From positions 51,557 to 115,556 of the forward strand of contig CAMWQW010000014.1 in assembly GCA_947176505.1 (NCBI GenBank): a DNA stretch of 64,000 nt, in the 5' to 3' direction. Both the position numbers and the translations under genes were made by a program. This document shows positions 4,102 to 61,010 of the stretch, in pieces. Numbering within the stretch: position 1 is the first letter of the stretch; each line of letters begins with the position of its first letter. Below the pieces are notes generated by a model, which did no database searches, had not been told where the DNA came from, and saw only the letters and a program-made list of their open reading frames with translations. This stretch comes from an uncultured Lachnospiraceae bacterium (lineage in GTDB: Bacteria > Bacillota > Clostridia > Lachnospirales > Lachnospiraceae).

Positions 4102-4260
4102 AATATACCTCCGTTTATCCTGCTCCGCTTAAGAGCGTCGAACTGCCGGATTATCATCCGCTATCATTCTACGATTAGCAATGCCTAAAACCATACTTTA
4201 TTAATATATCATAATCTGCCCTTTCTTAAAAGAGTTTCTTCCGAACATTAAGAATTCTCC

Positions 4261-4289: not shown

Positions 4290-4327
4290 ATCCATTACAT
4301 GCAGTAAGTAATTTCGGAGGTATTCGG

Positions 4328-4804: not shown

Positions 4805-4809
4805 CAATA

Positions 4810-4841
4810 CAGCAGTTTCTCAGTTGAGTGAGAAGCTGCTG
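4810..4841. terminator. bidirectional terminator overlapping the 3' end of the DUF1934 gene
   Basis: A stem pairs CAGCAG-TTCTCA with TGAGAA-CTGCTG, with one mismatched pair and a short loop, followed by TTTTCTTT on the plus strand. The stop codon of the convergent minus-strand gene (4820-4822) lies inside the stem. Confidence 0.75.
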
Positions 4842-5269
4842 TTTTCTTTGGAACATATATTGATTCTGATATGGCAGTCGGACAGAAACTCATAGTTGAC
4901 ATCCAGCGAATAATCTACATCCACTGTAATATTGTCCTCCTGCTCATCAATCCGTATTTTTTTTGTATCTATCCCGATAAGAATCTGTCCGAAAGGAGTG
5001 TTATAGTTCGTCAGATTTTTCTTGCTTTCCTGAAAAACCATATGTACGTTCACCAGCCCGTTTCTGGATAGTTCTAACATATGTTCGCTAAACTTTAATC
5101 TGTTCTTGGTGGGCTGGCTGAAGCCTTCCGTGACTTCTTCATATACCACGTAGTGCTTATCGTTCCTCTTATAGTAATCACCGACCGTCACCATTTCTAT
5201 CTTGTCGGCATCCTCTTCACGCTGGTCAAACTGCAGCCCTCGGAGCGTCAATAATACTTCCTGTGTCAT
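4820..5269 (-). CDS. DUF1934 (YwiB-like) protein
   Basis: 149 residues, matching the DUF1934/YwiB family length and its lipocalin-like beta-barrel pattern: alternating strands such as EVLLTLRG, DKHYVVYEE and VDVDYSLDVNYEFLSDCHIRI. No catalytic residues are evident and the role of the family is not established. AAGGTG lies 5 nt before the ATG. It is followed on the same strand by murI about 130 nt upstream, so it may be in that transcript. Confidence 0.8.
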   Translation of the reverse strand: MTQEVLLTLRGLQFDQREEDADKIEMVTVGDYYKRNDKHYVVYEEVTEGFSQPTKNRLKFSEHMLELSRNGLVNVHMVFQESKKNLTNYNTPFGQILIGIDTKKIRIDEQEDNITVDVDYSLDVNYEFLSDCHIRINICSKENSSFSLN

Positions 5270-5402
5270 ATATACACCTTGTTATCTTCCTGTTATATTT
5301 ATATTCTTTTTGTTACGATATATTTCTATTCATCTTCTGCCATATCCCTATTCTCTTTCTTCTGTCCGCCTGACAATTCTGCGTAACTTTGCTTAAATCC
5401 TT

Positions 5403-6236
5403 CTAATATTCATCTATATTAATAACTTTAGCGGACAAAATACCATAGGTCAGGATAGAATTGGCAAACTTCTGAAATTTATCCGCCGCATCACTGACGA
5501 AAAATCGGTACAACTCTGTTCCAAGCCCCGGTCTGTGCTCGCTCTCCAACCCTTTTTCCTGCAAAAGTCTCTTCAATGCCATCGCCGTCTCATATGCGGG
5601 ATTTACCAACGTTACGCTTTCTCCCATAATCTTTCCTATTGTAGAACGAATGATCGGATAATGCGTACATCCTAGTATTAACGTATCGATGCCCACGTCG
5701 ATAAGCCCCGTCAGGTATCTTCTTGCTATCTCGTCCGTCACCGGGTCTTCCCACAGCCCCTCTTCCACCAAAGGGACAAAAAGCGGACATGCTTTGCTGA
5801 GCACCAACGCATCGGAATCATTTTCTTTTATGTACCGGCTGTATATGCCGCTGCCGATTGTTGCCTCCGTGGCAATCACACCGATTTTATCGTTCTTTGT
5901 CGTGCCGATTGCCGTTTTCGCACCGGGTCTTACCACATCGACAATCGGAAGGTCTACCTCTTGTTCCAGTGCGTCCAAGGCGCAGGCGCTGACGCTGTTA
6001 CATGCAACTACAATTGCCTTAACTTCCTGCGTTTGTAGAAATCTTACAATCTGCTTGGAGAACTTCGTAATCGTCTCCTTCGACTTACTTCCGTATGGCA
6101 CCCTCGCCGTATCGCCAAAATATACAATCCGTTCATTAGGGAGCTGGCGCATGATTTCTCTTGCCACCGTCAGCCCGCCGACCCCCGAATCGAAAACTCC
6201 TATCGGTCTGTTACGCAATTCTTCCTGTTCGCTCAT
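5403..6236 (-). CDS. murI: glutamate racemase
   Basis: Interconverts L- and D-glutamate to supply D-Glu for peptidoglycan stem peptides. Conserved blocks are present: IGVFDSGVGGLTV with Asp16, VVACNSVSA with catalytic Cys79, and ILGCTHYP with catalytic Cys190. The 277-residue length is typical. The first Cys motif reads ACNSVS instead of the common ACNTAS, but the Cys is kept. It is 28 nt downstream of a small membrane protein gene, so the two probably form an operon. Confidence 0.96.
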   Translation of the reverse strand: MSEQEELRNRPIGVFDSGVGGLTVAREIMRQLPNERIVYFGDTARVPYGSKSKETITKFSKQIVRFLQTQEVKAIVVACNSVSACALDALEQEVDLPIVDVVRPGAKTAIGTTKNDKIGVIATEATIGSGIYSRYIKENDSDALVLSKACPLFVPLVEEGLWEDPVTDEIARRYLTGLIDVGIDTLILGCTHYPIIRSTIGKIMGESVTLVNPAYETAMALKRLLQEKGLESEHRPGLGTELYRFFVSDAADKFQKFANSILTYGILSAKVINIDEY

Positions 6237-44170: not shown

Positions 44171-44992
44171 ATGAGAACAAACATCAATACAGATCTTTTC
44201 TTAGATAAATTAAAAGAAGATTCCGGCGAATACCGTAATCTTGAAACGGCACAGTATAATCCGACCGAAAAGAAAAATGTAATCCGTTCTCTCATGAATA
44301 TACGTATGCCAAGGGAAGTCTCTACGGAACTGCTAGAAGTTCAAGATGCATATTTGCAGGAAGAGCTTGCCCAAAAAGGGGTTGTGCGCTTATCGGAAAT
44401 TCCGACACTTGAAGGTCAGTATCTGAATCGTTTATCAATTTGGCAGGGAGATATTACAAGACTGGAAGTCGGTGCGATTGTAAACGCTGCTAACTCACAA
44501 ATGTTAGGATGCTTTGTACCATGCCACAGATGCATTGACAATGCCATCCACAGCGCTGCGGGTATGCAGCTTCGCGATGAGTGCAGCCGCATTATGACCC
44601 AGAAACGGATACGCTACGGAAGAAAATATGAAGAACCCACCGGAACCGCCACTCTCACGAAAGCATACAATCTGCCCTGCGACTATGTAATTCACACCGT
44701 CGGTCCGATTGTATATGGCGGGCTGAACGATTCTCTACGCCAAGATCTACGCAACTGCTATAAAAATGTTCTTACGTGCTGTGTAGAAAATAAAATCCGC
44801 ACCGTTGCTTTCTGTTGTATCTCAACGGGCGAATTTCATTTTCCTAATGATGAGGCTGCTAAAATAGCTATAGAAACCGTGATTGATTTCCTGAAAACGC
44901 ATAATAATTCCTTGGAGCGAATTATTTTTAATGTCTTTAAAGACGACGATTTGGAAATCTATCAGCAGAAAATATCATCATACAATTTTTAA
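44171..44992 (+). CDS. zinc-dependent macrodomain, protein-ADP-ribose hydrolase
   Basis: 273 residues. An N-terminal helical region of about 90 residues precedes a macrodomain (SIWQGDITRLEVGAIVNAAN, GTATLTKAYNLPCDYVIHTVGP, ISTGEFHFPNDEAA). The insertion after NAANSQMLG holds Cys114, His119 and Cys121 in CFVPCHRCIDN, the metal ligands of the Zn-macro class, which removes ADP-ribose placed by class M sirtuins in Staphylococcus and Streptococcus. Here a class M sirtuin gene lies about 9 kb away rather than next to it. SD AGGAG 6 nt before the ATG. Monocistronic. Confidence 0.92.
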   Translation: MRTNINTDLFLDKLKEDSGEYRNLETAQYNPTEKKNVIRSLMNIRMPREVSTELLEVQDAYLQEELAQKGVVRLSEIPTLEGQYLNRLSIWQGDITRLEVGAIVNAANSQMLGCFVPCHRCIDNAIHSAAGMQLRDECSRIMTQKRIRYGRKYEEPTGTATLTKAYNLPCDYVIHTVGPIVYGGLNDSLRQDLRNCYKNVLTCCVENKIRTVAFCCISTGEFHFPNDEAAKIAIETVIDFLKTHNNSLERIIFNVFKDDDLEIYQQKISSYNF

Positions 44993-47775: not shown

Positions 47776-48690
47776 TTATATTTGTTTTTCTCCCATCAAA
47801 TAATATGTACTGATTTTATATCCTACAGCTCCATACATTTTATCAAGTCCGGTATATGTATAACCTAGACTTGCATTTGAAAGACCAATATCCTTTAAAT
47901 ATTTTGTTCCTAATCTAACTAAATTTGTTCCAATTCCTTGATGAGACTCTTTAAAAGATACGCAAGTACATCCAACACATCCCAAAGCTTTTCCTTCCGT
48001 TTCAACAGATACTATTAATGTACCGACAATTATACTATTTTTAACAGCAACTAAGACTTTTTGATTATAATCTGTTTCATACAATTTGGGATTTCTATAA
48101 TATACTGAAAATTTTTCTTCTTGATATTGACAAGCATCATCAGCACATTCTATGATTTCATCTAAGTCATCAATATCCGCCCATCTAAATGTAACTCCAT
48201 TTATTGTATTACCTATAGTTTCATTATTATCTTCAATATTATTTAAAGGCATTTTCATATCAAAACAATTACATTTTTTCCAAGAATGAGCATATCCTCG
48301 CTTTTCGAAAAAATTTGATGCTTTATCATTTACTTCCGGACATAAATTTTCATGAACGCTTTCAGTATATTTTTTACTGGTCGGAACACCCGGCATTAAA
48401 TAATCAAATCCCGCGCCTAAGACTATATTGTCATAACCGTTATTAATAATAGCATCTTCGCACTTTTTTAATAATTCAGAGCCCATTCCAATATTTCTGT
48501 ATTTTTCATCGACTACCAGAAGAAGTATTGCATTTTTATTAACTATCGCACATCCAATTAATTTGTTATCGGGATTTCTTTTTTCAAATATAGTATTATT
48601 TTCATTGTTTATTATATCTATCGCAGTTTTTTCTTCTCGATTAACGAATGGAAAATTTCTTTTAAACATATGATATATTTCATTATTCAT
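47776..48690 (-). CDS. tandem GNAT-domain acetyltransferase
   Basis: 304 residues with two GNAT folds. The N-terminal domain has LLLVVDEKYRNIGMGSELLKK and the C-terminal domain CTCVSFKESHQGIGTNLVRLG. Both carry acetyl-CoA pyrophosphate-loop patterns (R/Q-x-x-G-x-G). Very AT-rich. The ATG at 48690 is preferred (GAAGGAAG upstream); an in-frame TTG at 48699 is closer to the SD. Substrate unknown. Confidence 0.85.
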   Translation of the reverse strand: MNNEIYHMFKRNFPFVNREEKTAIDIINNENNTIFEKRNPDNKLIGCAIVNKNAILLLVVDEKYRNIGMGSELLKKCEDAIINNGYDNIVLGAGFDYLMPGVPTSKKYTESVHENLCPEVNDKASNFFEKRGYAHSWKKCNCFDMKMPLNNIEDNNETIGNTINGVTFRWADIDDLDEIIECADDACQYQEEKFSVYYRNPKLYETDYNQKVLVAVKNSIIVGTLIVSVETEGKALGCVGCTCVSFKESHQGIGTNLVRLGTKYLKDIGLSNASLGYTYTGLDKMYGAVGYKISTYYLMGEKQI

Positions 48691-48936
48691 TTGAAACAAC
48701 TTCCTTCATATATAATTATCATCGAAAATTTGAATTCTTTTTCATTGCTTATTATAGCAAATAGACAACTAATGTTCTACTCATATTTTCCATGTCAAAA
48801 TAGGAAAAGAAATAACAAAATGATATAAATATTTACAGGGCTTATGAGAAAATTTTCCGCTATAAATTTAATTATGACACTCTGATGTCGTATATAATAT
48901 GCTACGCTATAAAAAAAGAAAATTGGAGGTATTACA

Positions 48937-49503
48937 ATGGCAAATCCATATGAAAAATGCCCTGTATTTGAAAACGAAAACTATCTTCTAAGACTGATTG
49001 AACCCACAGACACAGAGGACCTGCTTCTCGTGTATTCTGACGAAAAGGCTGTGCCCTTCTTTAACAGCGACAACTGCGACGGTGATGATTTTCACTACAC
49101 CACTTTAGAACGTATGCAAAGCGCCGTTGAATTTTGGCAGCAGGCATATGCGGAGAAATGGTTTGTACGCTGGGCAATCATCGACAAAAAGTCGAACCAT
49201 GCCATTGGCACAATCGAATTATTTAATCGTCAGGCTGACGACTATTTTAATGACTGTGGACTTCTGCGGCTCGACCTGCGAAGCGATTATGAACAAATCG
49301 AAATCATCCATGAAATATTGTCTCTGATCATACCCGCAACCTATGAATTATTTGACTGCCGGATGATCGCCACCAAAGTTCCTCCTTTTGCCACCGAACG
49401 CATATCAGCGGTAGAAAAACTTGGGTTTGTACTGTCGGAGGAAACCTTGATTGGCGGAAATACCGGAAAAGAATATAACCATTATTATGTGTTGCAGATA
49501 TAA
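48937..49503 (+). CDS. GNAT-family acetyltransferase (RimJ-like)
   Basis: 188 residues. Acetyltransf_3-like sequence: YLLRLIEPTDTEDLLLVYSD, a central strand WAIIDKKSNHAIGTIELFN, and a C-terminal AVEKLGFVLSEE followed by YYVLQI. The canonical acetyl-CoA loop is poorly defined (LRSDYEQIEIIHEIL), so activity is uncertain. GGAGG 7 nt before the ATG. Converges with the hydrolase gene with no gap. Confidence 0.8.
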   Translation: MANPYEKCPVFENENYLLRLIEPTDTEDLLLVYSDEKAVPFFNSDNCDGDDFHYTTLERMQSAVEFWQQAYAEKWFVRWAIIDKKSNHAIGTIELFNRQADDYFNDCGLLRLDLRSDYEQIEIIHEILSLIIPATYELFDCRMIATKVPPFATERISAVEKLGFVLSEETLIGGNTGKEYNHYYVLQI

Positions 49504-50478
49504 TTATTTCAAATTCTCCGTAAAGAACTCTGTCATCTTATCAAAAGGAATCACATCGGTCCGGTCATATAGATCCGTATGAACGGCATTGGGGATAATC
49601 ATCAATTCTTTATTATCCCCTTTCAGAAGGCGATACGCATCCTTGCTGAAATAACAGGAGTGCGCCTTTTCACCATGTATCACCAACACAGCGTTACGGA
49701 TTTCTCCTGCGTACTGAAGAATTGGCATATTCATAAAGGATTGACAGCCAATTACATTCCATCCGCCATTAGAATTGAGAGAGCGGGGATGATATCCGCG
49801 CTCCGTCTTATAATATTTGTGATAGTCTTTTACAAAGAACGGTGCATCTTCCGGAAGCGGATCGACTACACCGCCGCCAAGTGTATAAGAGCCGTTTTTA
49901 TAATCTGCAATTCTCTGTGCGTTCAAAGACTTACGTTTCTCATAACGTGCTTCTTCGCTGTCCTCGGCATCAAAGTAACCCTTTGCATTTACTCTTGTCA
50001 TATCATACATGGTAGAAGAAACCGTTGCTTTAATGCGAGTATCCAATGCCGCCGCATTGATTGCCATACCACCCCAGCCGCAGATACCAATGATGCCGAT
50101 TTTTTCCGGATCAACATTATCCTGCAAAGACAGAAAATCTACCGCCGCCATAAAATCCTCTGTATTGATGTCCGGAGATGCCATATATCGTGGCTGTCCG
50201 CCACTCTCTCCCGTAAAGGACGGATCGAAAGCAATCGTCAGGAAACCTCTCTCTGCCATTGTCTGCGCGTACAATCCGGCTGCCTGCTCCTTCACAGCGC
50301 CGAATGGACCACATACCGCTATCGCAGAAAGTTTGCTATCTGCATTTCTTGGAATATACATATCAGCTGCCAATGTAATCCCATACTTGTTATGAAACGT
50401 TACTTTTCTGTGATTTACCTTCTCGCTTTTGGGAAATGTCTTATCCCATTCTGTTGTCAAAACTAACTTTTCTTCCAT
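49504..50478 (-). CDS. alpha/beta hydrolase of the dienelactone hydrolase-like group
   Basis: 324 residues, cytoplasmic. Oxyanion region AVCGPFGAVKEQ. The nucleophile elbow GICGWGG carries Cys where most hydrolases have Ser, as seen in YcjY-like and dienelactone hydrolase-type proteins. A C-terminal His in NAVHTDLYD is present, with FDPSFTGESGG earlier. Substrate unknown. AGGAGG before the ATG. Divergent from a LysR gene, the classic arrangement for a regulated target. Confidence 0.87.
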   Translation of the reverse strand: MEEKLVLTTEWDKTFPKSEKVNHRKVTFHNKYGITLAADMYIPRNADSKLSAIAVCGPFGAVKEQAAGLYAQTMAERGFLTIAFDPSFTGESGGQPRYMASPDINTEDFMAAVDFLSLQDNVDPEKIGIIGICGWGGMAINAAALDTRIKATVSSTMYDMTRVNAKGYFDAEDSEEARYEKRKSLNAQRIADYKNGSYTLGGGVVDPLPEDAPFFVKDYHKYYKTERGYHPRSLNSNGGWNVIGCQSFMNMPILQYAGEIRNAVLVIHGEKAHSCYFSKDAYRLLKGDNKELMIIPNAVHTDLYDRTDVIPFDKMTEFFTENLK

Positions 50479-50576
50479 AAGTTTATCCTCCTAAATAATA
50501 AGCTTTTTCATTTACCCTTCTTTGCTCTCTGTTTTTATTATACTTACTCCCATTTTCATGTCTAATACTTATAATC

Positions 50577-50621
50577 AATATCATGATATTCTTGACAGGA
50601 ATATCACTTGATATATATAAT
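50577..50621 (+). promoter_or_regulatory. lysR promoter with two ATATCA/TGATAT operator-like palindromes
   Basis: Palindrome AATATCATGATATT (50577-50590) abuts TTGACA (50592-50597). A second copy, ATATCA-CT-TGATAT (50601-50614), fills the spacer, and TATAAT is at 50616-50621 (18-nt spacing). The two sites are 24 bp centre to centre. Expected function: autoregulation by the LysR protein and control of the divergent hydrolase. Confidence 0.7.
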
Positions 50622-50653
50622 TAGCTTACTTTTTAAAATTGAGGAAACATCAT

Positions 50654-51529
50654 ATGGAAATACGGGTTTTGAGATATTTTTTGGCAATTGCACGAGAGGG
50701 GAATATGACAAGAGCCGCCGAGCGGCTCCATGTTACACAACCTACTCTTTCTAAACAAATGAAAGAACTGGAACAAGAACTTGGGAAAAAATTGTTCCGG
50801 CGCGGCAGTTCAAGCGTAAATCTGACAGATGAAGGAATGCTGCTCAGAAAGAGAGCTGAAGACCTCCTCGCCATGGCAGATAAAATCGAAAGCGAATTTA
50901 AAGCATTAGACGACATCACAGGCGGAGATATTTATATCGGCTGTGCCGAATCCCATCTGATCAAATATCTTGCCCTTGCAGTCAGCCGCCTCAACGAGAA
51001 ATATGCAAACATCCACTATCACATTACCAGTGGTGGTACCGAACTGGTCACGGAACATCTTGACCGTGGACTTTTAGATTTCGCATTCATTGTGGAACCA
51101 CCCGACTTATCCAAATACAATTATCTTGAAGTTCCCGAACATGATACTTGGGGCGTTCTTATGCGCAAAGACTGCCCTTTAGCAGAAAAATCTGTTATTG
51201 AAATCAACGATATTCTCCCCTATCCGGTCTTTTGTTCGGAACAGTCTGCGAAAGTCGACCTGCCGAGATGGTGTGGAGAACAGGTTGACCGACTTAATGT
51301 TATGGCTACTTTTAATCTGTCCGGCAACGCTGCCGTATTTGCAAGGGAAGGATTAGGCGTAGTGCTTACTTTTGATAAATTGATTGAAGTATCGGAAGCA
51401 GGCGATTTGTGTTTTCGACAGATTACTCCTGCTCTTCATACAAGAATGTATGTGATTTGGAAAAAATATCAGGTGTTTACTCCGGTTGCCGAACTTTTGT
51501 TGGCGGAACTCAAAAACATTTTAAAATAA
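50654..51529 (+). CDS. LysR-family transcriptional regulator
   Basis: 291 residues. N-terminal winged HTH (FLAIAREGNMTRAAERLHVTQ, PTLSKQMKELEQELGKKLF) and a C-terminal periplasmic-binding-like effector domain. ATG 50654 has GAGG 9 nt upstream; a TTG at 50639 is in frame but overlaps the SD. Likely regulates the divergent alpha/beta hydrolase. Confidence 0.94.
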   Translation: MEIRVLRYFLAIAREGNMTRAAERLHVTQPTLSKQMKELEQELGKKLFRRGSSSVNLTDEGMLLRKRAEDLLAMADKIESEFKALDDITGGDIYIGCAESHLIKYLALAVSRLNEKYANIHYHITSGGTELVTEHLDRGLLDFAFIVEPPDLSKYNYLEVPEHDTWGVLMRKDCPLAEKSVIEINDILPYPVFCSEQSAKVDLPRWCGEQVDRLNVMATFNLSGNAAVFAREGLGVVLTFDKLIEVSEAGDLCFRQITPALHTRMYVIWKKYQVFTPVAELLLAELKNILK

Positions 51530-51576
51530 GAAACCGACTGAAATGCTTTGGCAATAGATGTACTGCTCAAGTATGT

Positions 51577-52179
51577 TCATCTGTATTTGCGTTGTAATTT
51601 TTTGGAAAGTTTTTGTTTATTTTTTATTCTTGTTTTGCGGATTGCTCTTTTCTGTGAGATAAAAACATAATAACCATTTTCTTCTATTACTTTAACTCCA
51701 CCAAATACAGATTCTAACTTATTCTTATACCATTTATACCTTTTGGTAACCATAATCATACAGCCGCCATATTTCAAATGGCGGAACCCGTTTTCGATGA
51801 ACTTTTTGGGTACATTGAAGTCCGCATGATAAGGAGGGTTTGATAAGATCAAATCAAAGTCATGTTCAGTAATATTATGAAACCCGTCACTTTGGAATAT
51901 ATTGATATCTTCCAATCCGTTATATATGGCATTCTTCCTTGCCAATTCAATTGCAATGGAATTTATATCAACCATTGTAACATTCTCTGCACCTGAAAAA
52001 TGTGCTGCGTATATTCCTATTACACCATATCCGCATCCTAAATCCAATATTTTCTGTCCTGTCTGAAATTCAATTTTTGACATCATAGTCAGCGTCCCTT
52101 TATCAATACTCTTTGGTGAAAATAAAGAACTTTCCGTGTGCAGTTTAAGATATATTCCATTTATGGTACATTCTATCAT
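51577..52179 (-). CDS. RsmC-like class I SAM-dependent methyltransferase
   Basis: 200 residues. LFSPKSIDKGT and motif I ILDLGCGYGVIGIYAA, motif II VDINSIAIELARKN and motif IV ILSNPPYHADFN. NPPY marks N-methylation of a base or amide, as in RsmC (16S rRNA guanine N2) and relatives. The C-terminal tail is very basic (KTRIKNKQKLSKKLQRKYR), fitting an RNA substrate. ATGA-type 4-nt overlap with the upstream phosphotransferase-like gene. AT-rich. Confidence 0.88.
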   Translation of the reverse strand: MIECTINGIYLKLHTESSLFSPKSIDKGTLTMMSKIEFQTGQKILDLGCGYGVIGIYAAHFSGAENVTMVDINSIAIELARKNAIYNGLEDINIFQSDGFHNITEHDFDLILSNPPYHADFNVPKKFIENGFRHLKYGGCMIMVTKRYKWYKNKLESVFGGVKVIEENGYYVFISQKRAIRKTRIKNKQKLSKKLQRKYR

Positions 52180-53345
52180 ATCGTGTTTTTGATATCACTT
52201 TCACAATTCTGTATAAAACGGAACACCCTATATGCATCATTAGCATGTTTTGTGTCTTTCATACCAATGAAATACGCTACGAATAAAATTTCTATACATT
52301 CCATCACGCATGGGATTGATTTTTTCTCTTTTTCAGAAAGTCGAATGATACTTTCATAACCTCCAATAACTGATTTAGCATTTTCAAGCCATTCTTTTCT
52401 AGTAAAGGCATCATCTGTTTCTTCCGCTAACAATCCTGCCAAAAAATAGCAAACATCAAATATTCTTATATTTCTTTGGCTCAAATCGAAATCAATATAT
52501 CCTGACAAATGACCTTCAAAGAATAGAAAATTCCCAAAATGTACGTCTCTGTGAATCAGTTGTTTCGGCAGGTAATCATATACGTCTTCTAACAATTTTA
52601 CTGCCTTTGAATATTCTTCTTCGTCTAGTATGCTCCATTCATTATTTGTTAAATTTTCTCGTACCCATCCTTTCATCTCTTCTAACAGACTGTTATCCCA
52701 AAATTCAACTTCTCTTTCACATTGAACAAACGCCATATGTAACTGTGCAATTGCGCAACCCATTTCCCAAGCCATCGTTTTATTTTTAATATCGGAAATA
52801 TTACTCCCCTGCAACTTCTTTGACATGAGGAAATAAATATTTTTATGTTCAACATATTTTTCGCCTGTTCTTGTAAGAATTGTCTTCGCAACCGGAATAT
52901 TGCAGTCCAATAATATTTCTGATATTTTTATATTTCTTTCTAACTGTTTTTTGTTATCATACACTTTTATTACGTAATCATGATTAATTTCCCATGCTGA
53001 GGGATATATTTGTAATAATTGCCTGCTCTCAATTCCCCATAAAGACAAAATCTGCTCTATAATCTCTTTCATCTTCTGATATCTCACCTTTTCATTCAAA
53101 ATAATCCTTCTGATACTAGATTCCGACAAGTGATATATATTTCCAAGTTGTCCGTTAGTTCTTCCTTCAAGATGCTTTAAATATATATATTGATTGCGTT
53201 TCTCCAACTCAATCTTATAGTCAGTCTGTTGTGTTACTTCATACTGATTTTCCTTCGGTATATACAGATAGCCGCCTTGATAATATTTTTGAATAACTGA
53301 AAGTAATTCTTCCGGCAAAACATCATTTGCATTTGCATATTTCAT
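52176..53345 (-). CDS. fusion of a Mor-like/CD3324-type HTH domain and an aminoglycoside phosphotransferase-like domain
   Basis: 389 residues. Residues 1-85 (MKYANANDVLPEELLSVIQK, GRTNGQLGNIYHLSESSIRR) match the small CD3324/Mor-type HTH proteins of clostridia. The rest is an APH-like kinase: catalytic loop LIHRDVHFGNFL (HxDxxxxN) and metal Asp in GYIDFDLSQR. The P-loop region is weak. The natural substrate is unknown and resistance is not shown. The ATG at 53345 is chosen because GGTGG is 9 nt upstream. Coupled by a 4-nt overlap to the methyltransferase gene. AT-rich, likely acquired. Confidence 0.85.
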   Translation of the reverse strand: MKYANANDVLPEELLSVIQKYYQGGYLYIPKENQYEVTQQTDYKIELEKRNQYIYLKHLEGRTNGQLGNIYHLSESSIRRIILNEKVRYQKMKEIIEQILSLWGIESRQLLQIYPSAWEINHDYVIKVYDNKKQLERNIKISEILLDCNIPVAKTILTRTGEKYVEHKNIYFLMSKKLQGSNISDIKNKTMAWEMGCAIAQLHMAFVQCEREVEFWDNSLLEEMKGWVRENLTNNEWSILDEEEYSKAVKLLEDVYDYLPKQLIHRDVHFGNFLFFEGHLSGYIDFDLSQRNIRIFDVCYFLAGLLAEETDDAFTRKEWLENAKSVIGGYESIIRLSEKEKKSIPCVMECIEILFVAYFIGMKDTKHANDAYRVFRFIQNCESDIKNTI

Positions 53346-53437
53346 CGGCAGCATCCACCCCATAAGTATATTTATTTTATTATAACAGACCATTTCTGTT
53401 TATTGATGATTATATCCATTTCTGTATAAAATATAAT

Positions 53438-53465
53438 CACCGGTAGTTATTCCTAACAACCGGTG
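53438..53465 (-). terminator. terminator downstream of the class M sirtuin gene
   Basis: CACCGGT, inner GTTA-TTCC-TAAC, ACCGGTG: nearly perfect stem with one A-A mismatch. On the minus strand it is followed by ATTATATTTTATA. Confidence 0.6.
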
Positions 53466-53518
53466 TCACAGCAATCAGCCCATCCTTCCCAAGCGCTTCC
53501 AAGATTGCAATATCTACG

Positions 53519-54436
53519 TTAAATCCGCTTCAAAGTTTCCCTGATATCTCCGTCAATACAGATACTCTGCTTTTCAATTTCCAGCGGGCAGACAGCTTCC
53601 CCATAATTGATGCATGCATAAACCGCCTTCGGATTATGTGCTGTCATCTGCCAGAACGGATACTTGATAATACCCGGGGTGTTGTAGCCCACGCCCAATT
53701 CCAAGAACAACACATTCGTATTCCTATATTTTTCCAGAAATGTTTCGTATCGCTCGGCAGCTTGATACCAACCCCCGTCCTGCACAAAAGTATCATCCGC
53801 CCGGAGATTCATGCTCATAGGCTCACCACACTTTGGACAATAGGGTATTAATTCGTCCGGTACAGACATTTTGGCTGTCACACTATCCGGTAAATATAAA
53901 CGACTGTCTGCCCCGATTTGCCACCCCTGCGCTCTCACCATTTCACAAATCATATCCTCATTGTCGTAAGTCTCTTCATGACAGGGCTTGCTACATTGAA
54001 ATAAGCCGTAATCACCCTGCGTATAGTATAACCTCTTCTTATCAAATCCGGCTTTCTGAAAACAGTGATCCACATTCGTTGTTATGACAAAATAGTTTCT
54101 ATCCGCTACTAACTTATAAAGCTCCTGATACAGCGGTGTCGACGGATTCATATATCGGTTGATATAAATGTACCTGCTCCAATACGCCCAATGTTCATTT
54201 AAGGTCTTATATGGGAAAAAACCGCCTGAATACATGTCTTCAAACTGATACTTTTCCGCGAAATCATGGAAATATATCCGGAAGCGTTCTCCACTGTAAG
54301 TAAATCCGGCGGCAGTGGAAAGTCCGGCACCTGCACCGATAATGACAGCATCCGCCTGCTCCAGTCTATTCCTTAATTCCGTTAGTTTGTCTGTGTTACT
54401 TTTTATATTCTGTTTTTTTGCTTGAAAATGTAGCAT
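53519..54436 (-). CDS. class M sirtuin (SirTM-type protein ADP-ribosyltransferase)
   Basis: 305 residues of Sir2 fold. NAD-binding GAGAGLSTAAGFTYSG (from residue 34), Asn121 in TTNVDHCF and Gln140 in YTQGDYG. In canonical deacetylase sirtuins the second position is the catalytic His. Class M enzymes have Gln, and the 19-residue Asn-Gln spacing equals that of the S. aureus SirTM pair N118/Q137. A zinc ribbon is formed by CSKPC and CPKC. It should ADP-ribosylate a protein rather than deacetylate. It starts 5 nt after a 31-residue peptide gene that has the strong SD of the unit. Confidence 0.9.
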   Translation of the reverse strand: MLHFQAKKQNIKSNTDKLTELRNRLEQADAVIIGAGAGLSTAAGFTYSGERFRIYFHDFAEKYQFEDMYSGGFFPYKTLNEHWAYWSRYIYINRYMNPSTPLYQELYKLVADRNYFVITTNVDHCFQKAGFDKKRLYYTQGDYGLFQCSKPCHEETYDNEDMICEMVRAQGWQIGADSRLYLPDSVTAKMSVPDELIPYCPKCGEPMSMNLRADDTFVQDGGWYQAAERYETFLEKYRNTNVLFLELGVGYNTPGIIKYPFWQMTAHNPKAVYACINYGEAVCPLEIEKQSICIDGDIRETLKRI

Positions 54437-54441
54437 AATTA

Positions 54442-54537
54442 TCACTCTTTCTTTGCTGTGCCACAAGCTCTTGGTTTGTCACTTGCCCCGCATGCGCTCA
54501 TGTTTCCTACAAATTCTGCAACATTTGATAATGCCAT
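54442..54537 (-). CDS. 31-residue Cys-containing peptide gene ahead of the class M sirtuin
   Basis: Start ATG at 54537, with AGGAGG exactly 9 nt upstream, the best ribosome binding site in the unit; stop TGA at 54442-54444. The N-terminal half is helical-looking (MALSNVAEFVGNMS). The C-terminal half repeats an ACG-containing unit: Cys16 in ACGASDK and Cys25 in ACGTAKK, and ends KKE. No signal peptide. The sirtuin ATG follows after 5 nt, so translation is coupled. The layout (short peptide, then modifying enzyme) suggests a substrate or regulator of the sirtuin. A coupling leader ORF is the simpler alternative. Confidence 0.65.
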   Translation of the reverse strand: MALSNVAEFVGNMSACGASDKPRACGTAKKE

Positions 54538-54585
54538 GATTTCGTTCCTCCTGTCCATTGTTTCCTGTTTTCTTTCGACAAGTTT

Positions 54586-54627
54586 ATTCTAGCAGGAAGC
54601 AAAAATCTGAAAAAGTACGCACTTTTT
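54586..54627 (-). promoter_or_regulatory. promoter and inverted-repeat operator of the peptide-sirtuin unit
   Basis: On the minus strand the -10 TAGAAT (54591-54586) is 17 nt from a weak TTTTTC -35. A perfect inverted repeat AAAAAGT-ACGC-ACTTTTT (54610-54627) covers that -35. A related half-conserved copy, AAAAGT-AACC-ACTT, lies at 54644-54657 next to the HxlR fragment. HxlR-type repressors commonly bind such divergent sites. Confidence 0.5.
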
Positions 54628-54690
54628 TATTACATAGTTACAAAAAAGTAACCACTTGCATCACCAAAAAGCAGACCTATAAATTAACAT

Positions 54691-54939
54691 TGTAAACAGC
54701 AGATTCTTCTCGCCCGCCCTTGGCGGTTTAACGAACTTAAAAAAGATTTAGACGGAATCAGCCAGAAGGTCTTGACGGACTCTCTGCGGACTATGGAGGA
54801 GGACGGCATTATTACAAGAACGGTTTATCCGGAAGTGCCACCCCGCGTGGAATATGCACTGAGCGAACTGGGCGAGACCATGCGCCCGATTTTAGATGCC
54901 ATGATGCAATGGGGCATGGATTATAAGAAAAATCTCTGA
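54691..54939 (+). pseudogene. N-terminally truncated HxlR-family regulator
   Basis: An 83-codon open frame without start codon. It reads KQQILLARPWRFNELKKDLD, GISQKVLTDSLRTMEEDGII and VEYALSELGETMRPILDAM, the recognition helix, wing and C-terminal helix of an HxlR winged-HTH protein. The usual first 25-30 residues with CP and GGKW are missing and replaced by unrelated sequence, so the gene is probably dead. It faces away from the peptide-sirtuin operon, whose operator-like repeats it may once have bound. A further 67-codon frame follows at 54954 with no support. Confidence 0.75.
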
Positions 54940-55023
54940 GAAAGAGTACACATATGATTGCATTGATTGCGCCTCTTGAAAATGTCGCTATTCGCTTTGT
55001 GGGCAGAACCGATACTCCGCCCA

Positions 55024-56625
55024 CTACAGCGCATCAATCACACCCTGAACGCCCTGCTCCTCATAAATCTTCTTATAATATGCAACCTCATCCCGAATCA
55101 GCTCGTCTATCACCTGCATACCGAGAAGTTCCACCGGCGCCTTATCGTCAGTCATGATATAACCGCCCGCTTCATAGGCAGTTAAATTATCCGAAACTGC
55201 CGCCATCATCGCCGAAAGATTCTCATCCTCAATCTCTTCACGGTGAACTGCTAAATTATCGAGCATCTGCGGATTATCAGATGCAAATAATTCCCTGTTC
55301 GTGGTATTTCTCACGTCCACGGTATACACTTCACCAAATACACTGCTGATGGTATCTGCGAGATGTTGATTAATACTTCCCTCACTGCTGCCGCGCATAT
55401 TCATGTTGACCACCATCACCCCATCCTCAGTCAAGTGGTCCTTTACTAATGTAAAAAATTCCACGGAAGACATTTGAAAGGGAATCGTGATATCCTGATA
55501 CGCATCCACCATAATGACATCATATTTACCATCTATGGCATTCAGATATGCCCTGCCGTCGTAAGTAGTCACTTTCACGTCTTCCGGTAGTTCGAAATAC
55601 TCCCGTGCCAGCTTCGTAATCTTCTCATCAATCTCCACACCTTCTATTTCCATATCGCCATAATAGTTACGGCATTGATGAGCGTATGTACCCGTTCCCA
55701 TTCCGAGAATCAGCACGTTGCAATCACCGGGCTTGTCCTGTCCTGTCATCAGCGGCGCCGCCATGGCATAATCGTAATACATTCCCGTGAGCCCTTCATT
55801 TTTCATCAGAATAGATTGTACCCCGAACAAAACATTTGTCGATAATATGACACTTCTGTCACTTTCCTTTACCTGCAAATAATTATAGATGGATTCTCCT
55901 TCATAAGTTAAATCGCTCTCCCAGAAAGCAAAGCTGCCCGAATGCCCCAACATACAGCACAGAAGAAAAAGCACCGCAGATACTGTACCTTTCACCGCAC
56001 CTTTCCTGCCACTGATAAAATAGGTCAACGCCAGTGCCAGCAATATCCCCGCAAAAATCAGAAACGTAATGGAGGTTCCCACCGCCGGAATGGAAATAAA
56101 GGTCGGCACAAAAGTACCGATAATACTGCCGATAGTATTGAAAGCACCCAGTGTTCCAACAACCTTACCGCTGTCCTCAAGACTGTCCACCGAATATTTC
56201 GCCAGAGAAGGCGTCACCGTCCCCAGCAGAAATAACGGAAATACAAATATAACCATGCACGCCGCAAACGCCGCCCAGATTAAGAAATTCGTATTGACAG
56301 TAAAAATCAGCAGCGCGGAAATCCCCAGAATAATATATTTGCCTACCACCGGAATCGCCGCAATCCAAATTGCTGAAATTAAAATCCTGCCATATAGCTT
56401 GTCCGGATTCGGGTTCTTATCAGCACTCCGACCGCCGTAGATATTTCCCAACGCCATAGCGATCATAATCGTTCCTATAATAATCGTCCATACAATCTGG
56501 GAAGAACTGAAATAAGGCGCCAGAAGCCTGCTGGCGCCCAGTTCCACTGCCATCACCGACATACCCGAAAAAAACTCCGTCAGGTATAAAAACAGTTTAT
56601 TTTTTAAAATAGGTGCTGTGTTCAT
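55024..56625 (-). CDS. membrane-fused spermidine synthase-like protein
   Basis: 533 residues. About eight N-terminal membrane helices (residues 10-215) are fused to a spermidine synthase-type Rossmann domain: VLILGMGTGTYA (SAM-like binding), IEGVEIDEKITKLAREYF, VDAYQDITIPFQMSS. Polyamine synthase catalytic Asp patterns are only partly recognisable, so the product may not be spermidine. Such fusions are common in bacteria and uncharacterised in most cases. AAGGAG before the ATG. Confidence 0.88.
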   Translation of the reverse strand: MNTAPILKNKLFLYLTEFFSGMSVMAVELGASRLLAPYFSSSQIVWTIIIGTIMIAMALGNIYGGRSADKNPNPDKLYGRILISAIWIAAIPVVGKYIILGISALLIFTVNTNFLIWAAFAACMVIFVFPLFLLGTVTPSLAKYSVDSLEDSGKVVGTLGAFNTIGSIIGTFVPTFISIPAVGTSITFLIFAGILLALALTYFISGRKGAVKGTVSAVLFLLCCMLGHSGSFAFWESDLTYEGESIYNYLQVKESDRSVILSTNVLFGVQSILMKNEGLTGMYYDYAMAAPLMTGQDKPGDCNVLILGMGTGTYAHQCRNYYGDMEIEGVEIDEKITKLAREYFELPEDVKVTTYDGRAYLNAIDGKYDVIMVDAYQDITIPFQMSSVEFFTLVKDHLTEDGVMVVNMNMRGSSEGSINQHLADTISSVFGEVYTVDVRNTTNRELFASDNPQMLDNLAVHREEIEDENLSAMMAAVSDNLTAYEAGGYIMTDDKAPVELLGMQVIDELIRDEVAYYKKIYEEQGVQGVIDAL

Positions 56626-56650
56626 CTGCTACTCCTTTATCTTACGAGTT

Positions 56651-56731
56651 AGGCATTTTAATGCCTGTTTTTTCTCATACACAGAATCGCAAAGCGATTG
56701 CTGCCGAGATAGACATGTAAATGTCTATCTC
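56651..56731. repeat. cluster of three short hairpins in an intergenic region
   Basis: AGGCAT-TTTA-ATGCCT (56651-56666), AATCGC-AAA-GCGATT (56685-56699) and GAGATAGACAT-GTAA-ATGTCTATCTC (56706-56731) are consecutive. The first is followed by TGTTTTTTCTC on the plus strand; the last has no U-tract in either direction. This could be the terminator of the SPOCS gene or a structured intergenic repeat element. Confidence 0.5.
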
Positions 56732-56778
56732 ATAGTATATACAATTTTTCCCACCTTTACCACGAAAAACTTTATAAA

Positions 56779-58335
56779 CTATATACTCCCCTTCACCACC
56801 AGTATCTTATCACCGGCATTGATTTCCTCCGAAACAAGTTCATTTACTTCCTTAAGCTGTGCAATCGGCACATAGTAGCGCTTACCGATATCCCACAACG
56901 TATCTCCCTGTCCTGCAATATAGATTACCATGCCCGGCAGTTCACTCAACTTGTTCAAATCTAATTCTTCCACCTTCATGTCCGTAATCAGATTGCTTTT
57001 CCTTACCGCAAACACAATTACCTTAAACTGCAATGCCGCCTTCACGTCCAGTTCATCGTTATCGAGCATGGTCACTGTCAGCTGTTCAATGCTGTAATGC
57101 AGTTTGAAAATGCTTGTCGGCGTGATGTTTTCCGCCTCAATCACGTACTGGAACGGAATCACATTTTTGGTGGAATAAATTGACTTTGTACTGTTTCCGC
57201 ACAGATACAGAGTAACTACGCTCAACGTTCCGGTGATGGCAATGCCGTTCTCCACAATTGCCTGCTCCTCAATCTGAATCTCTCCTTCGGAATGAAGCAG
57301 CTGGTACATAGGCATTTCCGGATTCTGTATCTTGGCATGTTCCGCAATCTTACATTTGCCGCTGCCGCACAGCAACAGACTCTTAAGCTGTACTTCCGTG
57401 GTCAGCGCTTCAATTTCTTTGTCAACGCCGTAGATATCCGACAGTACCTCCATATTCTCCTCTTCATAAAGATGGATATCCAAATCCAACACCGGCTCCA
57501 CGCATAAAACACGTTCCTCACCATCAAAGTCCTGACGTACTTCCACATTGCACTGTCCGAGGCTGTATCGGATGTCCGGAATCATATTTTCTCTGCACCC
57601 GTGGCACTCGATGATTCCGCTGAAAGGCACCGTATTCTCATACCACAACGTCCTGTCGTTGTCCCCTTCTCCTTCATACAGGAAAAAGGCTTTCATCTCA
57701 CCCTGAATCGAAATCTTTTCTTCCAACGCCTTAAATTCAACATGGTCAAACGTAATATGATGCCATATCGTCTGAAATACATTAGGCAGATTTCCGGACA
57801 GCTCCATCTCCTCTTTTAGCCGGAAAATATCTTTTTTCTGTAATACAAGCTGTACTACGGGATAAACACGTTTCCTGTACTCCACCGGCTCATCATGATA
57901 AATATCCACCGCCGTATCCTGCTCGATATGTTCCTCCAGTTCCAGTCCGAAAGATACTACCGCCTGCACACTGAGTTTTCTGGAATTAATGAGTCCCACC
58001 GTCAGATCCTCTATCGTCCATTCAGTCAATATGATGTCACCGTTTGAAACGCCTTCCATATTGACTCTTTCTTCAAAGGGAATCACTGCCTCCATGCTGG
58101 CACAGGTTCCCTCCATGTCCGTCAGATACAGAATAGACACCACCAGCTTACCTCGCAGATTCACCACATTTTCACCGGCACGTATTTCCTCCATGATAAT
58201 CTCGCCCTTGCTGTTTAACAGATAGCTGGCGTCGGGTTTGTTATCTGATATATTGACATCTTCTTCCAATACGACTTGCGTGCCGGCTCTGCTGCTGATC
58301 CGATCCATATGTATCTTCTTTTTTACTAATTCCAC
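56779..58335 (-). CDS. sipL: SipL-like spore morphogenesis protein (SPOCS domains plus LysM)
   Basis: 518 residues. Three repeats of the SPOCS/DUF3794 fold (around 20-150, 170-300 and 320-450, with recurring LRGKLVVSILYL, IQGEMKAFFLYE and ITGTLSVVTLYL strands) end in a LysM domain (VIYIAGQGDTLWDIGKRYY, DKILVV). In Clostridioides difficile SipL binds SpoIVA and is needed for spore coat assembly. Its presence implies a sporulating host or descendant. GTG start with GGAGG 9 nt upstream. Confidence 0.9.
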   Translation of the reverse strand: MELVKKKIHMDRISSRAGTQVVLEEDVNISDNKPDASYLLNSKGEIIMEEIRAGENVVNLRGKLVVSILYLTDMEGTCASMEAVIPFEERVNMEGVSNGDIILTEWTIEDLTVGLINSRKLSVQAVVSFGLELEEHIEQDTAVDIYHDEPVEYRKRVYPVVQLVLQKKDIFRLKEEMELSGNLPNVFQTIWHHITFDHVEFKALEEKISIQGEMKAFFLYEGEGDNDRTLWYENTVPFSGIIECHGCRENMIPDIRYSLGQCNVEVRQDFDGEERVLCVEPVLDLDIHLYEEENMEVLSDIYGVDKEIEALTTEVQLKSLLLCGSGKCKIAEHAKIQNPEMPMYQLLHSEGEIQIEEQAIVENGIAITGTLSVVTLYLCGNSTKSIYSTKNVIPFQYVIEAENITPTSIFKLHYSIEQLTVTMLDNDELDVKAALQFKVIVFAVRKSNLITDMKVEELDLNKLSELPGMVIYIAGQGDTLWDIGKRYYVPIAQLKEVNELVSEEINAGDKILVVKGSI

Positions 58336-58448
58336 AAAAATAAACCTCCATGCGTATACTTAATATAAGTGTATGCCGCATAGAGGTTGTATATGATTTC
58401 AATTTTATAGCCGCAATTCACATTGACACCGACTTTTACATTTTATGC

Positions 58449-59441
58449 CTACCCTATCCATTTCAATAATTCTTCCGGCTTGGCGTTTTGCTTTCTGTCT
58501 GCAACTATAGAGAAATCTTCCGTATACTCTCCGGTTCTGTAGTCATGAATCAGTATATGATAAGGCTCTTCCAAAGAAATCCAGATATCCAAATTCAAAG
58601 TTGCGAAATCTCCATGCATCACCATCTGATCATTAAACCACCAATAATATGCATCGTCTCCGATCATCGTCGTCACGCTATAACAAATTCCCTCCTCCCC
58701 ATTTATGGATTCTATTCCTCTGACATAGCTCAACGCGTCCTTCTCTTCGTTAAGTTCGGGAATTCTGGAATAGATTTCCTTTTCCATTTCTGCCAGTTTC
58801 TCATAGTGATCGGTTTTCCAGTCATATATTTCCCGACGGTCATATTCCGGGCAGGCAAGATAAACAATATACCCTTTCGCATCGGGTATGATAATCTCAA
58901 ATTCTCTCTGTTCCTGTCCTGCTGGTAAAAAGGAAAGAAAGGGCACTGTCTCCGCCGTATAAACAAGAACATTCATTGCATACGGCTCGCTGTCACTCTC
59001 TTTATAGGCAACGCGTTTTACCCTCTCCCCCGATACATTTACCGTACCATGAAGTGTCAGACTCCCCGTCTCTTCATTGTAAATATAGCTCGTAATCTGC
59101 AACGGTGCGGTAGACATCGGTCTGCCGATGACGTAAACTCTTGCAAGAACCGATAAAAAGCATAGCAATAAAAGTCCCGTGACGATTCCGGTAGCTAGTT
59201 TCAACGTCCTCGTAAGCCTGTGTAACTTCTTAAATCCGTCAATCGCCGCCTGCTCCTCCGGAACTCTTCCGACACCCGGCATAAGCTCTATTTCTTCCGT
59301 CATTTCTTCATAACATTGCCAGCATACGCTGCATTCCTGCAAATGCTCTTTTACTGCGTCTTCTCCCGTCTCACTCAGGATTCCGTCAATATATCCGGGC
59401 AGCAAATCCTTAATAATATCACAGGGATATACTCTATTCAT
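58449..59441 (-). CDS. zinc-finger anti-sigma factor with extracytoplasmic domain
   Basis: 330 residues. N-terminal zf-HC2-type ZAS domain (CDIIKDLLPGYIDG, HLQECSVCWQCYEEM with HxxxCxxC), one membrane segment at about residues 85-108, and an extracellular C-terminal domain of about 210 residues. It should hold the adjacent ECF sigma factor at the membrane. Start ATG 59441 (AAGGAG 10 nt upstream) overlaps the sigma stop; an in-frame GTG at 59447 is the alternative. Confidence 0.88.
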   Translation of the reverse strand: MNRVYPCDIIKDLLPGYIDGILSETGEDAVKEHLQECSVCWQCYEEMTEEIELMPGVGRVPEEQAAIDGFKKLHRLTRTLKLATGIVTGLLLLCFLSVLARVYVIGRPMSTAPLQITSYIYNEETGSLTLHGTVNVSGERVKRVAYKESDSEPYAMNVLVYTAETVPFLSFLPAGQEQREFEIIIPDAKGYIVYLACPEYDRREIYDWKTDHYEKLAEMEKEIYSRIPELNEEKDALSYVRGIESINGEEGICYSVTTMIGDDAYYWWFNDQMVMHGDFATLNLDIWISLEEPYHILIHDYRTGEYTEDFSIVADRKQNAKPEELLKWIG

Positions 59442-59946
59442 ACGCACTTAACTCCTTTTTCATTTTCATCTTCGCCCGATAGAAGATTGTCCTACACCAG
59501 TTTTCACTTTTCCCTAAAATCTCCCCAATCTCCCTAAAGGAGAGTTCACCCGTCATGCGGTACATAACGACCTCTCGTTCCGGTTCGGATAAGTGATGGA
59601 TGGCACGATAGAGCTCTGTTCTGATCTCCCTCTGTAGCACATCACTCTCACCATCCCGCGCCGCATCGTCTTGAATATACTCTGATAGCTCTATTGTCTC
59701 TACCCGCTTCTTTTTGCGCAGTTCCTGATACAGAATATGCTTGGCGATTTGACAGAGCCATACTGAAAGCTTACAGGAACCATCATAACGATTTACAGAG
59801 GTGACTGCCCTCAAAAATGTTTCCTGCATTAACTCCTCAGACCACTGCGCATCATGGGTATGGGCATACAGAAAACGGTACACCAGCTTGGAATATTCCT
59901 GATAGACTAAGTCCATTTCTATGCTGTTTTCATCAGATTCCTGCAC
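59434..59946 (-). CDS. ECF-type RNA polymerase sigma factor
   Basis: 170 residues. Region 2 VYQEYSKLVYRFLYAHTHDAQ and ELMQETFLRAV; region 4 LSEPEREVVMYRMTGELSFREIGEILGKSENWCRTIFYRAK. GTG start with GAGGAGG 7 nt upstream. Coupled to its anti-sigma factor by overlap. Confidence 0.93.
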   Translation of the reverse strand: MQESDENSIEMDLVYQEYSKLVYRFLYAHTHDAQWSEELMQETFLRAVTSVNRYDGSCKLSVWLCQIAKHILYQELRKKKRVETIELSEYIQDDAARDGESDVLQREIRTELYRAIHHLSEPEREVVMYRMTGELSFREIGEILGKSENWCRTIFYRAKMKMKKELSAYE

Positions 59947-60060
59947 ACCCTCACCTCCTCGTCTTACCTCTTATATCCCAATTTGAGAGTTTTCGTTACA
60001 AAAAAAGAAAAATTTGCTTTGCAAACTCGAAAAACGTAAAGGACTTCCCATTGCATAAAA

Positions 60061-60093
60061 AAGCCACAAAACCTGCTTAAGATTTTGTGGCTT
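60061..60093 (-). terminator. pyrD terminator
   Basis: AAGCCACAAAA, 11-nt loop, TTTTGTGGCTT; on the minus strand it continues TTTTTTATGC. It ends the pyrK-pyrD transcript. Confidence 0.88.
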
Positions 60094-60098
60094 ACCTA

Positions 60099-61010
60099 TT
60101 ATGTGTTCTCAACTGCCCCGATTAATTCCGTTACATTCTCAATACCGTAACACTCCATATATGCTTCGATACCCTCAATGACTTCCACTGTCGTATACGG
60201 ATTTACAAAATTCATAGCGCCCACTGCCACCGCGCTGGCTCCGGCAAGTAGAAATTCTATGGCATCTTCCGCATTGGCGATACCGCCCATACCAATAATC
60301 GGAATTTTTACTGCCTGCGCCGCTTGATAGACCATACGCACTGCCACCGGCTTAATGGCAGGTCCCGAAAGACCGCCCGTCTTATTAGCAAGTGCAAATT
60401 TTCTCTTGTGAATATCAATTTTCATACCCGTAATCGTGTTAATCATGGACAGTGCATCGGCTCCTGCCGCTTCCGCTGCTTTCGCCATCTCCGCAATGTC
60501 CGTCACATTAGGACTTAACTTCATAATGACAGGCTGTTTCGCCTTCTTCTTAATCTGAGATGTAATATCATACAAACTGTCAGGTTTTTGCCCAAATGCA
60601 ATTGCCCCTTCCTTGACATTCGGACAGGATACATTAATTTCCAGCATATCCACCGGTTCATCTGCAAGACGCTCTACCACCTCAAGATAATCTTCCACCG
60701 TCTTACCGCAGACATTGACAACAATCTTCGTATCATATTGTTTCAAAAAAGGAATATCACGTTCCACGAAGACATCTATCCCCGGATTCTGTAAGCCTAT
60801 CGCATTCAGCATACCGCCATAAGTCTCCGCCACGCGCGGCGTCGGATTACCCTGCCAAGGAACGTTTGCTACCCCTTTGGTCACCACTGCACCCAACTTG
60901 TTCAAATCTACAAAATCGCTATATTCCATGCCGGAACCAAAAGTCCCGGATGCCGTCATCACCGGATTATTCAGAGTCACCCCTGCAATTGTTACTTTTG
61001 TATTAATCAT
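60099..61010 (-). CDS. pyrD: dihydroorotate dehydrogenase B, catalytic subunit
   Basis: 303 residues, FMN-binding TIM barrel that oxidises dihydroorotate in pyrimidine synthesis. NPVMTASGTFGSG, NAIGLQNPGID, INVSCPNVKEG with the catalytic Cys, IGMGGIANAEDAIEFLLAGASAV. The class 1B form uses NAD through PyrK, encoded directly upstream with a 4-nt overlap. No other pyr genes lie in the window. Confidence 0.96.
   Translation of the reverse strand: MINTKVTIAGVTLNNPVMTASGTFGSGMEYSDFVDLNKLGAVVTKGVANVPWQGNPTPRVAETYGGMLNAIGLQNPGIDVFVERDIPFLKQYDTKIVVNVCGKTVEDYLEVVERLADEPVDMLEINVSCPNVKEGAIAFGQKPDSLYDITSQIKKKAKQPVIMKLSPNVTDIAEMAKAAEAAGADALSMINTITGMKIDIHKRKFALANKTGGLSGPAIKPVAVRMVYQAAQAVKIPIIGMGGIANAEDAIEFLLAGASAVAVGAMNFVNPYTTVEVIEGIEAYMECYGIENVTELIGAVENT

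Follow-up and report, generated by a model that had tools for sequence, protein, structure and literature searches.

A shortened ACGX-repeat peptide gene before a class M sirtuin in a Lachnospiraceae genome, most likely the relic of a radical SAM peptide operon

In the genome of an uncultured Lachnospiraceae bacterium, a gene of 31 codons stands immediately in front of a gene for a class M sirtuin (SirTM). The stretch analysed, called the window here, comprises 64,000 nucleotides. The arrangement raises the question of whether the two genes form a functional pair, with the peptide as acceptor, scaffold or toxin-like target of the sirtuin, as had been proposed from a sequence-only reading, or whether they came to be neighbors in some other way.

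The peptide gene and its sirtuin neighbor

The peptide gene (54442..54537, minus strand) runs from an ATG at 54537 to a TGA stop at 54444-54442 and encodes MALSNVAEFVGNMSACGASDKPRACGTAKKE. A Shine-Dalgarno sequence, AGGAGG, is located 9 nt ahead of the ATG (54547..54552, minus strand), and a gap of 5 nt separates the stop from the sirtuin ATG at 54436. The gene, its ribosome site, its duplicated ACG unit and its distance from the sirtuin had all been described correctly in the sequence-only reading. An alternative start at 54558, which would give an ORF of 38 aa, was rejected because the peptides of relatives begin at MALSN.

Among the NCBIfam models, the peptide matches TIGR04341 (target_ACGX, the ACGX-repeat peptide) with 21.6 bits and an E value of 0.00025; it misses the curated cut-off of 28 bits, which the orthologues in L168 (59.3) and L227 (51.8) pass. 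The MALSN leader of these orthologues is present and is followed by two ACG units. In tblastn searches, orthologues with 80% identity were found in four genomes of the same genus (E ~5e-12), and among 77 same-genus genomes, orthologues of 55-71 aa with 73-80% identity are present in G351, G309, G310, G317, G315, and G313. In 38 leader-bearing peptides, the window included, position 6 is always L, I or V and position 9 always W or F, and the window peptide, with V6 and F9, lies inside this range. This comparison is confined to peptides that fit the search pattern, with the MSNLENV and MGLKN types left out, and the L3 and N5 found in 38 of 38 carry no weight, as the pattern imposed them. Because of the same-genus orthologues and the constraint at positions 6 and 9, the window gene is, as far as comparison of sequences can tell, more than a chance ORF. 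A weak match to an AgrD-type signal peptide (E 0.083; 13.1 bits against a cut-off of 19) was discarded, and another MALSN-type frame, at 59651-59761 of the window (minus strand), which has one CG and overlaps a longer same-strand ORF (59434-59946), was taken as chance.

The sirtuin gene (53519..54436, minus strand) is uninterrupted and encodes 305 aa. Its match to the Pfam SIR2 model is below the cut-off (21 bits against 24); its best match in the PDB is 5a3a (E 8.9e-67), and in the alignment YYTQGDYG corresponds to FHIQGEYG of 5a3a, with QG in place of the catalytic HG. This replacement is given as the mark of class M sirtuins in PMC4518038, and the earlier assignment to class M is borne out. 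The QG motif is found in 149 of the 151 sirtuins of our tree set and in 56 of 56 ACGX-linked SirTMs; it is no special sign of an ACGX link, because it is equally common in unlinked SirTMs. The earlier statement that a carrier and a lipoate ligase are missing also holds, and for the whole window genome: GcvH (PF01597) and lipoate ligase (TIGR00545) each gave 0 matches. At 52176-53393 (minus strand), a CD3324-family region (NF040785) is joined to an APH/homoserine-kinase-like phosphotransferase domain in one protein.

A macrodomain gene adjacent to the sirtuin in the same operon was not found. A zinc-type macrodomain protein-ADP-ribose hydrolase of 273 aa (44171..44992, plus strand; NF003163 307.6 bits, cut-off 272) is encoded 8.5 kb away on the opposite strand. 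It is 67% identical to the SirTM-near macrodomain of L175 and 66% identical to that of L176, which suggests that writer and eraser have probably both been kept in the window despite the decay of the peptide unit. Its CFVPCHRC region, the residues of which we take to be zinc ligands, is common to seven relatives with small changes. This macrodomain is likely the eraser partner of the sirtuin.

Complete operons in relatives and the junction in the window

Close relatives have a precursor of 53-73 aa, which is followed by the radical SAM/SPASM enzyme rSAM_ACGX (TIGR04340), then by a nitroreductase and/or a PNPOx/4Fe-4S protein, with the sirtuin last (protein names of the operon parts are from Pfam). 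The same-genus loci L166-L171 contain precursor, rSAM_ACGX, nitroreductase, and SirTM; a PNPOx/4Fe-4S gene precedes the SirTM in L166 and L168 and has no match in L167, L169, L170, and L171. The named relatives L227, L228, and L229 contain precursor, rSAM_ACGX, PNPOx/4Fe-4S gene, and SirTM, with a nitroreductase in L227 only. A divergent HxlR gene is located upstream in most of these intact loci (L166-L171, L227-L229). At the window locus, no rSAM_ACGX gene stands beside the peptide, and models of rSAM, nitroreductase and PNPOx/4Fe-4S proteins gave no match within 48001-61000. In the whole window genome no rSAM_ACGX exceeds the cut-off, the best match being 49.7 bits against 400.

The upstream side of the operon is partly preserved. 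The promoter region (54586..54653, minus strand) is kept in intact relatives and contains a GGTTACTTTTTTGTAACTATGTAATAAAA..GTGCGTACTTTT block and a -10-like TAGAAT; the block GGTTAC(C/T)TTTTTGTAAC..GTGCGTACTT is common to the window and most intact relatives. The GGTTACTTTTTTGTAACTATGTAATAAAA..GTGCGTACTTTT block may be regarded as a candidate HxlR operator. The HxlR gene itself is a relic (54691..54939, plus strand), in which HMM positions 31-106 of 108 match 54706-54933; about the first 30 residues are missing, and no stop interrupts the frame from at least 54691 onwards.

On the downstream side, the tail of the peptide gene (54437..54457, minus strand), which comprises the last codons, TGA-TAA, and the spacer, matches the end of the PNPOx/4Fe-4S gene found in relatives ahead of the sirtuin. 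In L227, L228, and L229 that gene ends in ..SRKG, followed by TGA TGA, AT, and the sirtuin ATG, and the window peptide ends in ..AKKE, followed by TGA TAA, TT, and the sirtuin ATG; the window reads AAAGAAAGAGTGATAATT-ATG and the junction of the relatives AGAAAAGGGTGATGAAT-ATG. Over the 21 nt before the sirtuin ATG, identity of the window is 15/21 to L227, 15/21 to L228, and 14/21 to L229. As a control, the other 1,028 ATG sites in the four loci were compared, and all of them reach 13 matches or fewer, against 14-15 of 21 at the three matching sites. In L226 the gap is one base shorter, and ungapped identity to the window is only 8/20. The peptide end, the stop and the 5-nt gap match the end of another gene; therefore, an in-frame deletion probably made the present ORF. 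Its last codons, stop and gap most likely come from the PNPOx/4Fe-4S gene and would have been attached behind the second ACG unit without a change of frame, so that the leader and two ACG units would be followed by about 3-4 codons of a lost gene. The homology, the absence of the genes and the match at the junction are read directly from the DNA, and the deletion event is what we infer from them.

The following history is proposed. The ancestral order would have been a divergent HxlR gene, ACGX precursor, rSAM_ACGX, perhaps a nitroreductase, PNPOx/4Fe-4S gene, and SirTM. One in-frame deletion would have begun in the precursor, at its second repeat unit, and reached into the last codons of the PNPOx/4Fe-4S gene, and a separate deletion would have removed the start of HxlR. 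The promoter region, ribosome site and leader of the precursor would then have been left running directly into the uninterrupted SirTM gene. The peptide is probably still translated; since the radical SAM enzyme has been lost, it presumably stays unmatured, and its present effect is most likely limited to bringing translation up to the sirtuin gene. The sirtuin, whose activity is likewise presumed, probably continues to act together with the macrodomain encoded 8.5 kb away and has its target elsewhere than in this locus. The window peptide is thus most probably an ACGX-repeat precursor shortened by a deletion, and most likely a relic. The same-genus loci L166-L171 and the named loci L226-L229, in which the precursor is followed by rSAM_ACGX, then by one redox gene or both, and lastly by SirTM, support the deletion, as does the tree, in which the window sirtuin belongs to a supported set of 15 rows where 12 of the 14 others are ACGX-linked.

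Several observations weigh against this history. The homology at the junction spans only 21 nt, and the locus of L169, whose sirtuin is nearest to that of the window on the tree, gives no PNPOx/4Fe-4S match. Neither a stop nor a frameshift interrupts the ORF, and its leader is well preserved; therefore the ORF may still be under selection, and the deletion may perhaps be too young to tell. Another SPASM enzyme of the window genome, where four weak matches were found, might also act on the peptide. The strong Shine-Dalgarno sequence, the 5-nt gap and the conserved promoter region would further suit a functional leader peptide that controls the sirtuin by translational coupling or attenuation. 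This explanation appears rather improbable, as the gap was probably inherited from another gene pair, and no terminator-like site was found in the window at 54400-54800. The tight coupling, which had been read as design, is most likely a deletion scar, because the stop codon and the 5-nt gap match those of the lost upstream gene. As a caution, two closely spaced genes may be such a scar even when the ribosome site is a good one.

Similar losses can be observed elsewhere. L225 (G344, same genus; 3966-5518) contains HxlR, a shortened ACGX peptide, and SirTM, with the radical SAM block gone, and no rSAM_ACGX was found in the G344 genome (85% complete). Its peptide has no TIGR04341 match and is of the MSNLENVAAFA subtype, and because it belongs to another subtype, the loss looks independent of that in the window. 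Two independent deletions that both keep leader and sirtuin could mean that the pair was kept for a reason. In L047 (G091; 2420-2657), a 39-aa ACGX peptide directly precedes a PNPOx/4Fe-4S fragment; no rSAM gene is present on this 4.6-kb contig, G091 does not appear among the family genomes with rSAM_ACGX, and its sirtuin is on a different contig. In two close relatives the rSAM_ACGX gene is split by a frameshift or stop, at L170:6706-7735 (with ambiguous bases) and L229:1075-2106, so several lineages may be in the course of losing this operon. Shortness alone is no proof of decay, because very short precursors adjoin full-length rSAM_ACGX genes in L053:9652-9735 (28 aa) and L304:2897-2986 (30 aa).

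A toxin, scaffold or dedicated acceptor that arose together with this sirtuin would constitute a new two-gene system, and the present gene order is the one feature that favors it. The orthologues show that the peptide descends from an ACGX precursor, and the two-gene arrangement is not conserved in relatives; such a system is therefore highly implausible and was rejected, and no result points to a toxin. A search for the peptide beside other class M sirtuin genes had been suggested as a check. In the best 80 of at least 590 named loci, no credible ACGX peptide occurs without a radical SAM gene, and in a set of 100 loci, the pair without rSAM was found once, in L225. Upstream of 38 SirTM genes, the ORFs of 12-130 aa that lie within 400 nt and are preceded by an SD-like site include none with the ACGX leader. 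A 24-aa ORF with CGAACG before the SirTM of L080 forms the end of a longer frame that begins further upstream, and it was dismissed as chance. The peptide gene noticed earlier is real, and its design appears to have been misread; it matters chiefly as a clue to the complete operon.

Recurrence of the association with class M sirtuins

SirTM relatives were found in 147 of 299 genomes of the family and rSAM_ACGX in 37 of 299, at 38 places. At a distance of up to 5 kb, on either strand, SirTM was found at 22 of them, HxlR at 31, PNPOx/4Fe-4S at 20, nitroreductase at 19, and a Zn-type macrodomain at 13. An ACG peptide lies within the same distance at 30 of 38 places by a strict count, which needs at least three [AST]CG units and so leaves out the 28-aa peptide of L053, and at 31 by a looser one, in which the G109 match is chance; HMM matches below 60 bits were dropped. 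The proximity of SirTM (22/38) corresponds to p 5e-41 if a 0.5% chance per place is assumed. By hand count, 33 of the 37 rSAM_ACGX genomes also have a SirTM (Fisher p 8e-8, kinship ignored). No SirTM lies within 5 kb at 16 of the 38 places; some places, such as those in G130, G260, and G065, are near contig ends, so that the lack of a sirtuin at these is uncertain.

The same association was found in narrower and wider samples. In the genus, rSAM_ACGX is present in 21 of 77 genomes (two under the cut-off), and 18 of the 21, compared by hand, have a SirTM within 5 kb on the same contig. In a phylum sample of 398 genomes, 10 match rSAM_ACGX and 8 exceed the cut-off; an ACG peptide is present at all 8 of these places and a SirTM in the surrounding stretch at 4, one of them cut by a contig end, whereas neither gene was found at the two places with lower scores. 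Of the 80 best named SirTM loci (of at least 590), 23 contain an rSAM_ACGX-type gene, whole or in part; in this set, peptide matches by regular expression alone in L276, L287, L300, and L302, and the second such match in L238, were judged to be chance. Three SirTM-like genes in tandem were observed in L082:5753-8714. These sequence data point to a recurrent link between a radical SAM peptide system and the ADP-ribosylating type of sirtuin, a link that was not found in print in the open PMC literature; the word "radical" is absent from the main text of the SirTM papers PMC4518038 and PMC11490716.

What the link means can be explained in two ways. The SirTM/Zn-Macro and ACGX modules may merely share a neighborhood under the same HxlR, co-regulated and with no enzyme-substrate relation. 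HxlR is present in 43 of 81 SirTM loci and rSAM_ACGX in 37 of 81, in a sample partly chosen for peptide or rSAM, and HxlR stands beside SirTM without rSAM_ACGX in L057, L245, and L275, among others. On the tree, from which truncated, stop- or X-containing and identical rows were dropped, ACGX-linked SirTMs are scattered, and a dedicated ACGX-type clade was not found. Their 37 label changes compare with a shuffled mean of 45 (3 of 500 shuffles as low), so the modules appear to join and part often, with the link gained and lost repeatedly. The order of peptide, rSAM, redox proteins and sirtuin in one direction, across genera and other families, is tighter than loose co-regulation needs; in L192 and L198, both family loci, the sirtuin has the opposite orientation. 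Co-regulation without a substrate relation has a little less than an even chance of being correct.

Alternatively, the ACGX peptide of complete operons may be a ribosomal redox carrier, a counterpart of lipoyl-GcvH-L. The rSAM_ACGX enzyme would modify the Cys/Asp repeats, the flavin and 4Fe-4S proteins would use the peptide, SirTM would ADP-ribosylate Cys or Asp, and Zn-Macro would reverse the modification; the window peptide would then be a reduced but usable acceptor. The counts of SirTM near rSAM_ACGX in family, genus and phylum, the QG motif of all ACGX-linked SirTMs and a role-by-role match to the extended SirTM operon (PMC4518038, PMC11490716) favor this explanation. Against it, SirTM occurs without ACGX in most genomes, many rSAM_ACGX places have no SirTM nearby, Zn-Macro is near at only 13 of 38, the linked SirTMs are not one clade, and QG does not distinguish them. 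As a whole, the redox-carrier explanation is possible but somewhat unlikely.

ACGX repeats contain both Cys and Asp, and the frequent CGASDK and CGAGDK units give a C-x3-D spacing. C-x3-D is the motif of the ranthipeptide maturase PapB, to whose model rSAM_ACGX shows a weak match (67.4 bits, cut-off 340). According to PMC11490716, SpyGcvH-L carries its modification on Asp27, and no hydrolases of Cys-ADP-ribose other than Zn-Macros are known; the ACG repeats are rich in both Cys and Asp. In the same paper (2024), GcvH-L is named as the sole known target of SirTM, and what other SirTM/Zn-Macro systems act on is described as unknown. By analogy, intact ACGX peptides are candidate SirTM targets. 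The earlier proposal that the peptide is an ADP-ribosyl acceptor thus survives in part, as it would be a fair hypothesis for complete rSAM operons, which often include a SirTM, with or without a Zn-Macro, and would apply much less to the truncated window peptide.

In its broadest form, the proposal is of a new SirTM branch in Clostridia, in which a ribosomal, radical-SAM-matured Cys/Asp repeat peptide (ACGX) would replace lipoyl-GcvH-L as the ADP-ribosylated redox carrier; Zn-Macro would be the eraser in those loci that have one, and the window locus would be a stripped-down derivative. This proposal is tentative and, on balance, unlikely. The recurrent operon of SirTM and radical SAM peptide names a concrete candidate substrate that can be tested in E. 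coli. No paper on the function of ACGX peptides was found in the open PMC literature, and the proposal would be a first functional hypothesis for them.

Relation to known systems

With the ACGX system of NCBIfam (TIGR04341 and TIGR04340), the window shares the MALSN leader, the ACG units and the promoter region; it differs in having a peptide of two units only with a score under the cut-off, a C-terminus apparently from another gene, and no rSAM_ACGX in the genome. The C-x3-D spacing common to ACGX repeats also recalls the ranthipeptide maturase PapB (PMC9413430); rSAM_ACGX, however, is a family of its own, and PapB-like chemistry for it is only a guess.

On the sirtuin side, the window resembles the SirTM/Zn-Macro pair (PMC4518038) in its QG motif, its best match to 5a3a and the presence of a Zn-type macrodomain gene in the window. 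It departs from that pair in the distance of 8.5 kb to the macrodomain and in a locus that descended from an operon with a radical SAM peptide unit. The extended SirTM operon, as described in PMC4518038 and PMC11490716, comprises GcvH-L, LplA2, SirTM, Zn-Macro, OYE, and LLM, whereas the window genome has no match to GcvH or lipoate ligase. Complete ACGX operons may nevertheless contain counterparts of its carrier, carrier modifier, SirTM, Zn-Macro and oxidoreductases; the carrier would be a repeat peptide, and the modifier a radical SAM enzyme.
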